Assembly: GCA_024278555.1 (NCBI GenBank)
Contig: JAJRSX010000192.1
Coordinates: 1 to 10,762 of the forward strand
Length of the DNA: 10,762 nucleotides
Source: a bacterium
GTDB lineage: Bacteria; CG2-30-53-67; CG2-30-70-394
Direction of reading: 5' to 3'
Under the pieces are notes generated by a model that had not been told where the DNA came from, made no database searches, and worked only from the letters and a program-made list of their open reading frames with translations. This document shows positions 1,919 to 5,600 of this stretch, piece after piece. Position 1 is the first letter of the stretch; every line of letters starts with the position of its first letter. Made by a program: the position numbers and the translations under genes.

Positions 1919-1942
1919 ATTTCGGATTATTGGGGCCGAAAT
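1919..1942. promoter_or_regulatory. 24-bp operator ATTTCGG-N10-CCGAAAT, hao copy
   Basis: The 7-bp arms are perfectly inverted around a 10-bp spacer. The identical arms and spacer length recur at 5577-5600 between the regulator gene and the nor operon, while the spacer bases differ ([17 protein letters not shown] ttggcgctat). That is the pattern expected of a dimeric protein-binding site. It ends 15 bp before a sigma-54-like promoter. The natural candidate to bind it is the enhancer-binding protein encoded at 3938-5536; this is inference. Confidence 0.7.
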
Positions 1943-1957
1943 ACAGCAACTTACGCG

Positions 1958-1973
1958 CGGCACGGGATGTGCA
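1958..1973 (+). promoter_or_regulatory. Candidate sigma-54 promoter of the HAO-like gene
   Basis: CGGCAC-GGGAT-GTGCA has the GG and GC dinucleotides at the required ten-base spacing, with one mismatch in the -24 hexamer and one in the -12 element. It lies just downstream of the 24-bp operator. The GG is 29 bp from the operator centre here against 49 bp at the nor promoter. The 20-bp difference is close to two helical turns, so the site would be on nearly the same DNA face. Predicted start is near 1984. Confidence 0.5.
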
Positions 1974-2047
1974 TGAGAGGTGTTGCTCGGCGGCGTTGTG
2001 CCTGTCCGGGCCCCTCCCTGCCGCCACCGGCGCGGGAGACAGGGTCG

Positions 2048-2069
2048 AGAGACCACTCAGAGACCACTC
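2048..2069 (+). repeat. Tandem 11-bp direct repeat
   Basis: AGAGACCACTC occurs twice in perfect tandem, one helical turn apart, in the presumed leader of the HAO-like gene. It may be a chance duplication or paired protein-binding sites. Confidence 0.5.
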
Positions 2070-2118
2070 ATGGTTCCCCAACTCCCCCTCTGCGACAGGA
2101 AGGCCCATCACGCCGGCG

Positions 2119-2138
2119 CGGCGGCCCGGGGGCCGCCG
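2119..2138 (+). repeat. GC-rich hairpin in hao leader
   Basis: CGGCGGCCC-GG-GGGCCGCCG has 9-bp perfect arms. Extra closing pairs could form outside, and the loop would be enlarged in RNA because a two-base loop is too tight. No T-run follows, so it does not look like an intrinsic terminator. Confidence 0.4.
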
Positions 2139-2247
2139 TGGGTGGGTGGTATTCCCCGGGTCCTCTGTGTCCCCGGTGAGAGGCGGTGGTGGTCCTGAGC
2201 GGCCCTGTCGCCGGCACAAAATACCCACCCGCAGGAGGAGATCCACC

Positions 2248-3822: not shown

Positions 3823-3872
3823 CTCTTACGCGAAGCCTCGGACGCACCGGATATCTCAACAGTCATTATTTC

Positions 3873-3917
3873 CGCTGATCCTCAGCGAGCGGGCGTGCCC
3901 CCGAGCGGGGCACGCCC
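3873..3917. terminator. Paired hairpins between convergent genes
   Basis: CGCTGA-TCC-TCAGCG is followed by GGGCGTGCCCC (3891-3901) pairing perfectly with GGGGCACGCCC (3907-3917) around a five-base loop. A further CATGCC-CGT-GGCATG overlaps the regulator stop codon at about 3939-3953. There is no T-run on either strand, so these are not classic intrinsic terminators. Their position at the 3' ends of both genes argues for transcript-end or mRNA-stability hairpins. Confidence 0.4.
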
Positions 3918-3937
3918 CATGCGGTTGCGCCGTCGCC

Positions 3938-5536
3938 TCATGCCCGTGGCATGGGGCGGCGGCGCTCGTCCCGGGGACGGACACCGAAGCGGCGTAGCTT
4001 TCCCTGGAGGGTGGTGGGCTTGAGCCCTAGGCGCGCCGCGGCGCCGTCGGCGCCGTAGATCTTCCCGTGGCTCTCCTCCAGGGCCCGCTGCAGCAGGGTC
4101 CGTACCCCCTCATCGAAGGTGGGTACGGCCCCTGCATCACCGTCCGCGACCATGGTGGCGCCGGGGAGCCGGTCCACCACCAGGGCCTCCGGTGGGCCGA
4201 CGATGAGGGCGCGTTCGAGGAAGTTCTCCAGCTCGCGCACGTTGCCCGGCCACGGGTAGTCGCGGAGTCGCTCCACCGCCTCGGCCGGGACCGCCGGCGG
4301 CCGCCGGTTGAGGCGGCCGGCGATCCGCTCCACCAGGTGGCGTACCAGGGGGGCGAAGTCTTCGCGGCGCTCGCGGAGGGGCGGGAGGTGAATCGGGAAG
4401 GCGTTGATTCGGTAGTAGAGGTCCTCGCGGAAGCGGCCGTCCGCCACCATCTCCTCCAGGGGGCGGTGGGTGGCGGCGACCACCCGCACGTCCACGCCGA
4501 TCTCGTCGCCGCCGCCCACCCGGCGGATGCGGTGGTCTTGGAGCGCCCTGAGCAGCCGCACCTGGACCGACAGGGGGGCGTCGCCCACCTCGTCGAGGAC
4601 CAGGGTGCCGCCGTGGGCGCGTTCGAACTGGCCCCGCTTGCGGCCTGTGGCGCCGGTGAAGGCGCCCTTCTCGTGGCCGAAGAGCTCGCTCTCGATGAGC
4701 CCCTCGGGGATCGCCCCGAGGTTGACCACCACCAGGGGGCCGGTGGCGCGCGGGCTCTGCTCATGGATGGCGCGCGCCAGCCCCTCCTTGCCGGTGCCGG
4801 TCTCGCCGCGGATGAGGACCGCGGCGTCGGTGGCCGCCACCCGCCGCGCCTCCTCCATCACCTGTTGCATTGCCGCCCCCTCGGCGATGTAGGCGCCGGC
4901 GCCGCGCACCACCTGCCGCTTGAGGTCGGCGTTCTCGCGGGAGAGGAGCCGGTTGAGGCGGTGGACCTCCTCCACCATCAGGGAGTTGTGCAGGGCGATC
5001 GCCACCAGCCTGGCCACCCGCTCGGCGTGGTGAAAGCAGTGGTCGATCATCCCCTCGCCGGGGGGGTGGGCGATCTCCAACGTGCCGATGGGGGTGCGGT
5101 CGAGGATCAGGGGGAAGCAGGCGAGGGACCCATAGCCGGCGAGCGACAGGCGGCGCTCCTCGTCGAACCGCTGGGCGGTGGGTTCGAGGTGCTCCAGCAC
5201 CACCGCCGCCCGTCGCTCCAGGGCGGCCCCGGAGATGGAGCGGCGCAGGTCGAAGCGGTGGCCGCGGCCGGGGTAGGGGAGGCGCGGGTCGTCGATGAGC
5301 AGGACCTCCCCCCACCGCTCATCGATCCGCCGGTTGAGGGCGATGCGCGTCGCCCCGAAGTGGCGGCGCAGGAGCGCCCCGATCCGCTCCAGGACCGTCT
5401 CCAGGTCGACGGTGGAGAGCAGGGTGGTGATCGCCTCCTCCAAGAGGGGGTCGGCGGGGGCGCGGTGGAGGGCGTGGATCTCCTCGCCCGGGTGGGTGGG
5501 GGTCGGGTCGTGGTGGTGGTGGTCGTGGGTAGCCAT
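3938..5536 (-). CDS. Sigma-54-dependent transcriptional activator, GAF-AAA+-HTH (NorR/FhlA-like)
   Basis: This 532-residue regulator has a His-rich N-terminus (HDHHHHD, then His15, 21, 24), a GAF sensor domain at about 30-185, a linker helix, a AAA+ domain at about 217-450, and a Fis-type HTH at about 485-515. The AAA+ domain has Walker A GETGTGKE at 244-251, the sigma-54 contact loop GAFTGA at 291-296, and Walker [10 protein letters not shown]. It should open sigma-54 promoters, and three candidates lie in this window. The architecture is that of NorR, the NO sensor. However, the cysteine used by E. coli NorR as an iron ligand does not align by eye: here Cys140 sits two residues before the Pro of the CFPL strand, not four. 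The signal is therefore uncertain, and the HTH looks more FhlA-like. It is divergent from the nor operon, with a shared operator between. Confidence 0.9.
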
Positions 5537-5551
5537 GGAGAGTGTCTACCC

Positions 5552-5557
5552 AATATA
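5552..5557 (-). promoter_or_regulatory. Possible -10 element of the regulator gene
   Basis: On the minus strand TATATT matches five of six consensus bases, 15 bp before the regulator ATG. No -35 element is seen at 17 bp. The place where it would be overlaps the 24-bp operator, so binding there could affect the regulator's own transcription. Weak evidence. Confidence 0.25.
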
Positions 5558-5576
5558 CGTTGCGTGCGCCACCTTT

Positions 5577-5600
5577 ATTTCGGTTGGCGCTATCCGAAAT
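5577..5600. promoter_or_regulatory. 24-bp operator ATTTCGG-N10-CCGAAAT, nor copy
   Basis: This has the same perfect 7-bp arms and 10-bp spacer length as the element at 1919-1942. It lies between the divergent regulator gene and the nor operon, 35 bp before the sigma-54 -24 element. A second inverted repeat, GCGCCA (5566-5571) with TGGCGC (5585-5590), overlaps it, and GGGT-GTT-ACCC follows at 5623-5633. The centre falls at about -73 from the predicted start: close for an enhancer site, but workable. Confidence 0.7.

Follow-up and report, generated by a model that had tools for sequence, protein, structure and literature searches.

A shared inverted repeat at the octaheme and nor promoters

Could one sigma-54 activator switch on an octaheme cytochrome and a nitric oxide reductase together? 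The question is raised by a stretch of 10,762 nucleotides, the whole of contig C173 and hereafter the window, in which the inverted repeat ATTTCGG-N10-CCGAAAT occurs 5' of an octaheme cytochrome gene and again 5' of the nor operon, with the gene of a sigma-54 activator in between (Table 1). The initial annotation had described two copies with the same arms, the same spacer length and unrelated spacer bases, and re-reading the sequence at both positions bore this out. Its remark that there was no other copy can be extended to the entire assembly (3.06 Mb, 100% complete, 211 contigs). The only two exact matches in the genome are those of the window, 3.7 kb apart and flanking the activator gene; no match has one mismatch, and three have two mismatches, vs one for the reversed control. 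Within the window, no third copy was found with up to three mismatches allowed. A two-mismatch match on contig C84 was considered as a third site and rejected because it is embedded in a GGAAAC/GTTTCC repeat array, beside a PEP-CTERM protein and another activator. The GGAAAC/GTTTCC array at L003:1480-1545 has a sigma-54-like promoter, a PEP-CTERM protein and an activator gene in its vicinity, an arrangement that resembles a PEP-CTERM sigma-54 circuit. A further repeat, at L209:5310-6260, consists of about 14 tandem copies of a unit of about 72 bp, each containing the inverted repeat CCGCAGCGTT.

Table 1. Coordinates of the genes, promoters and repeats of the window.
Feature	Position	Strand	Comment
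Outer inverted repeat GTTGCTGT/ACAGCAAC	1906..1950	.	Encloses enhancer 1; 29-bp interior; significance uncertain
Inverted repeat ATTTCGG-ATTATTGGGG-CCGAAAT (putative enhancer 1)	1919..1942	.	5' of octaheme gene
Sigma-54-like promoter CGGCACGGGATGTGCA of octaheme gene	1958-1973	+	From sequence; orthologous TGGCATAGCGGATGCA in congener
Octaheme c-type cytochrome, HAO-like family, 8 CxxCH; likely nitrite/hydroxylamine-handling enzyme	2248..3675	+	nap context of orthologues
GAF-AAA+(GAFTGA)-HTH sigma-54 activator, FhlA-type HTH; putative regulator of both promoters	3938..5536	-	
Outer inverted repeat CGCCAC/GTGGCG	5567..5607	.	Encloses enhancer 2; 29-bp interior; significance uncertain
Inverted repeat ATTTCGG-TTGGCGCTAT-CCGAAAT (putative enhancer 2)	5577..5600	.	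5' of nor operon
Sigma-54 promoter TGGCACGGCCGTTGCA of nor operon	5636-5651	+	Perfect consensus; conserved TGGCACGGGGGTTGCT in congener
Small protein, first gene of nor operon, membrane-bound by sequence look	5684..5968	+	72% orthologue in congener
norC-like cytochrome c subunit	6022..6621	+	87% orthologue in congener
norB, nitric oxide reductase catalytic subunit	6624..8075	+	COX1 family match; 91% orthologue in congener
Truncated haemoglobin, probably last gene of nor operon	8160..8540	+	PF01152; absent in congener

Such a recurrence had been called very unlikely by chance, which is too strong for the bare coincidence of two repeats and stands for their place in the genome. Pairs of identical repeats with 7-bp arms and equal spacers arose in 10 of 300 dinucleotide shuffles of the window. 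Of 40 real windows taken from this genome, 13 had such a pair; in 3 of the 40 the arms were AT-rich, and these pairs lay in repeated sequence. The coincidence is therefore weaker than first claimed. Among 30 strong sigma-54-like promoters, that of nor included, a dyad with at most three mismatches occurs at nor only, where it has none; the next-best has four, and the top two among the rest overlap with words of the GGAAAC type. The second copy adjoins a weaker promoter, that of the octaheme (hao) gene. The non-randomness of the dyads rests on their genome-wide uniqueness and on their placement at both sigma-54 promoters.

The position of both copies just 5' of sigma-54-like promoters, at distances 20 bp apart, was confirmed. 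The nor promoter is one of 17 perfect consensus matches in the genome, which also contains rpoN. The dyad centre lies 41 bp from the -12 GC at the octaheme gene and 61 bp at nor, a difference of exactly 20 bp (39 and 59 bp from the start of the dyad to the start of the -24/-12 element), which places the centres at about -53 and -73. Since 20 bp is about two helical turns, an activator would approach both promoters from one side of the helix. The geometry is an ordinary one, because spacers of 10-12 bp have been published for the enhancer sites of many sigma-54 activators (PMC6615313), and in Desulfovibrio the largest share of sigma-54 promoters has its closest enhancer site no more than 100 nt away (PMC4641369). 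Also in agreement with the initial annotation, the motif differs from NorR sites: neither GTCA-N3-TGAC nor GGT-N7-ACC is present in the two promoter regions. No tandem GT-N7-AC triplet was found at nor, and the region upstream of hao has a single GT-N7-AC, downstream of the promoter and close to the gene start. The two promoters also have in common AAATACAG-N4-TTAC, at 1939-1954 and 5616-5631, just 5' of the -24 element (21 of 28 positions alike, the -24 element counted); it is not common to the two promoters of the congener.

An activator with an FhlA-type DNA-binding domain

The gene between the two targets does encode a sigma-54 activator, as initially annotated. Its domains are a single GAF, a sigma-54 AAA+ module that contains GAFTGA, and a helix-turn-helix (HTH) at the C-terminus; together with rpoN in the genome and -24/-12 elements at the target promoters, these are the features of an enhancer-binding protein. 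It scores below every NCBIfam equivalog cut-off shown, with 318 vs 476 bits for the NorR model and 337 bits for that of FhlA, whose cut-off is 830. The NorR match ends at residue 445, before the HTH, and the FhlA match extends through it. When the protein is aligned with NorR and FhlA of E. coli, its HTH proves to be FhlA-type (29 residues set against GVVAGPKGAAQRLGLKRTTLLSRMKRLGI), with 17 of 34 residues identical to FhlA, GAA-RLGLK-TTL included. The iron centre of the NorR GAF domain involves R75, Y98, D99, H111 and C113, and changing Y98, D99 or H111 disrupts it (PMC2941729). The first four have no equivalents in the window's protein, which has a cysteine near C113, at an uncertain spacing. 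Judged from its sequence, the activator is thus not NorR-like, having an FhlA-type HTH and lacking the iron-centre residues; on the same grounds it is not FhlA proper, with its single GAF domain, its score below the FhlA cut-off and its different targets.

The dyad had been proposed as a new recognition site. It is unlike the NorR sites, but it is not wholly new, because its half-sites ATTTCG and CGAAAT both occur in the published FhlA enhancer consensus CATTTCGTACGAAATG (PMC4987338). The upstream regions of hyc/hyp and fdhF in E. coli carry ATTTCG, which in hyp is 44 bp away from the -24 element. By analogy only, then, the FhlA-type HTH and the ATTTCG half-site may be tied together; ATTTCG showed no enrichment around the sigma-54 promoters that neighbour other activators of FhlA type (2 of 29 observed vs 2.0 expected). 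Among the matches listed from 60 relatives and 80 named genome loci, none was an orthologue with more than about 40% full-length identity, and the matches there are generic activators.

An octaheme cytochrome with relatives in nap operons

The label HAO-like is right as to family and probably misleading as to function. The protein has eight CxxCH motifs and matches PF13447 above the cut-off, which makes it a member of the HAO family, but a nap-linked nitrite-handling cytochrome fits it better than a hydroxylamine oxidase. The P460 tyrosine cross-link is a trait of hydroxylamine oxidases, and for the C-terminal region of the octaheme protein no alignment was obtained with Nitrosomonas HAO. Its best PDB matches are an octaheme chain and HAO chains; the top one, 4qo5_A, was deposited as a hypothetical multiheme protein, and we take it to be the Ignicoccus hospitalis octaheme cytochrome. 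A paper on the 4qo5_A structure is cited within PMC8840924. In two genomes of the sister family (L062:3157-8466 and L071:1-6198), octaheme orthologues come last in operons of the periplasmic nitrate reductase, nap. The order in G002 is napA-napG-napH-napB-napD-octaheme and in G003 the gene is likewise preceded by napA and napD, the NapB and NapD matches in these operons being below curated cut-offs. Because orthologues end nap operons and no protein of the window's genome scores above the NrfA cut-off, the octaheme protein is probably a nitrite- or hydroxylamine-handling enzyme. In epsilonproteobacterial Hao, a nap-type context points to the reduction of nitrite or hydroxylamine, and the context here would favour such a reduction over hydroxylamine oxidation.

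Conservation and alternative explanations

The initial annotation had proposed to judge the sites by whether they persist 5' of orthologous hao and nor genes in relatives, and the outcome is mixed: within the genus, both promoters and the left half-site are retained and the right arm is lost, and the octaheme orthologues of the sister family have neither promoter nor dyad. The same-genus comparison involves one genome (G001), in which the locus is split over two contigs with an assembly gap. The first contig has, in order, a lytic transglycosylase, a Cys-rich protein, p157 and the octaheme gene (85%), followed by the gap; the second has the start of an activator orthologue (the remainder falls in the gap), the small first protein, norC, norB and p220. 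The gene order on the two contigs matches that of the window. The Cys-rich protein (104 aa, CWQLMRCG..., window 661-975, minus strand) is conserved 5' of the congener's octaheme gene. The truncated haemoglobin gene, which comes after norB in the window, is missing at the otherwise syntenic locus of the congener (L061:2556-2724). Both sigma-54 promoters are present in G001 at orthologous positions. The nor upstream region has a nearly identical block of about 45 bp that includes ATTTCGGTTGGC, with CCGAAAT replaced; at hao, TTTCG alone is retained from the dyad and the right arm is lost. No TTTCGG-N10-CCGAAA dyad occurs anywhere in G001. In the sister family, the octaheme orthologues have neither a sigma-54 promoter nor a dyad upstream. 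As far as one congener can tell, therefore, the genus shares the sigma-54 promoters and the left half TTTCG, but the complete palindrome, of which G001 has lost the right arm at either site, is no genus-wide conserved operator.

In the strongest of the alternatives, co-activation and the sigma-54 promoters are real and the activator binds other conserved elements, the palindrome being a species-specific strengthening of half-sites or in part a coincidence. Two elements could take this role: the 45-bp block TCTACCCAATAT..CGCCACC..TATTTCGGTTGGC at nor and a CCCAAWAT-like element about 86 bp 5' of the -24 element at all four promoters. The conserved nor block of the congener ends inside the palindrome, TTTCG and the promoter alone stand out at its hao gene, and identical repeat pairs are not rare in this genome. 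The dyads are nevertheless exact and genome-unique at both promoters of this species, and GC-rich dyads of the GTGGC/GCCACC type, examined in their place, did not exceed background. We regard this explanation as unlikely, if the most serious of the alternatives. A related candidate, TTTCG-N13-GTGGCG, is found at both G001 promoters and has three copies genome-wide; it was set aside because GTGGC/GCCACC words are at background level in a GC-rich genome.

Less probable still, and in our view rather improbable, is that the dyad is the operator of a different factor, a repressor or another enhancer-binding protein, co-regulating both promoters. Nothing links the protein encoded at 3938-5536 directly to the letters of the dyad, about two dozen other activator matches exist in the genome, and the sites are close enough to the promoters for a repressor to act too; yet there are only two copies, both flanking this very activator gene, and neither promoter has an NsrR, DNR/FNR or NtrC-type site. 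It is most improbable that the dyad acts as a hairpin or cruciform, with inner arms of 7 bp and outer arms of 6-8 bp: the outer repeats do enclose each dyad and the folding z-scores are -2.7 and -2.3, but the element is upstream of the sigma-54 transcripts and not inside them, the inner arms have the same sequence, as protein recognition would predict, the hao site of the congener shows no excess folding (z 0.05), and the T-run of a terminator is absent. The outer repeats of the two dyads differ in sequence and are equal in the length of their interior.

A proposed circuit and its relation to known systems

We consider it somewhat probable that the dyads are enhancer (upstream activating) sites through which the activator encoded between them jointly opens the octaheme and nor promoters. 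A ligand or stress would be sensed by the single GAF domain, a dimer would read both ATTTCG half-sites with its FhlA-type HTH, and the AAA+ ring would touch the sigma-54 RNA polymerase via GAFTGA, so that the two promoters open together. The octaheme enzyme, the NO reductase and the truncated globin would then be induced jointly. We infer that the activator binds the dyads, that the signal is of the N-oxide type (nitrite, NO or another stress) and that control is positive. A number of points speak against the dyads as enhancer sites. First, the right arm is lost in the congener. Second, sigma-54 activators commonly use two or three dimer sites, and each promoter has one dyad, with its centre close to the promoter. 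Third, the arm spacing differs from that of FhlA, ATTTCG is not enriched at the promoters tested beside other FhlA-type activators, the activator gene of the congener is interrupted by the assembly gap, and the genome has 24 scored matches to other sigma-54 activators. The regulon suggested at the outset is partly supported: it is favoured by the activator lying between its targets, the conserved sigma-54 promoters, rpoN and a motif unlike that of NorR, and disfavoured by the unconserved full palindrome.

Four known systems come closest. The formate hydrogenlyase regulon of FhlA in E. coli and Salmonella shares the half-sites, the sigma-54 promoters and a GAF-AAA+-HTH activator with a closely similar HTH. 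It differs in the gap between ATTTCG and CGAAAT (2 bp in FhlA, 12 bp here, that is 10 bp further apart), in the longer N-terminal sensor of FhlA and in its formate and hydrogenase targets. The NorR-norVW/norAB systems (GT-N7-AC) share a sigma-54 activator of GAF type, encoded divergently from NO reductase genes whose operon has a consensus sigma-54 promoter; they differ in the HTH, the iron-centre residues and the three tandem sites, and the second target here is an octaheme cytochrome. DVU3142-ohcBAC in Desulfovibrio also has a predicted sigma-54 activator, with a predicted enhancer site, encoded divergently from a periplasmic octaheme cytochrome operon (PMC4641369), but that operon specifies the Ohc electron-transport complex and has no link to NO reductase. 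The epsilonproteobacterial Hao and octaheme nitrite reductases share the octaheme c-type cytochrome and, through the sister-family orthologues, the association with nap; in the window's genus, in contrast, the gene is outside a nap operon, behind a sigma-54 promoter and beside nor. In the open-licence literature, we found no paper that places an octaheme cytochrome and nor together under sigma-54 control.

We put forward tentatively, as possible rather than probable, that a single FhlA-like, non-NorR activator co-induces the octaheme and nor genes via the N10-spaced ATTTCGG dyad, as a switch for NO/nitrite stress that evolved independently. The half-site would then be ancestral, and the full dyad a recent gain here or a loss in the relative. 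If true, a poorly sampled lineage would have a nitrosative/nitrite-stress circuit whose activator is not NorR, NsrR, DNR or HcpR, with a concrete, short set of candidate sites. A nap-linked octaheme enzyme would be coupled to NO removal at the level of transcription, and the circuit would illustrate how half-sites of FhlA type may have been taken over for another pathway.
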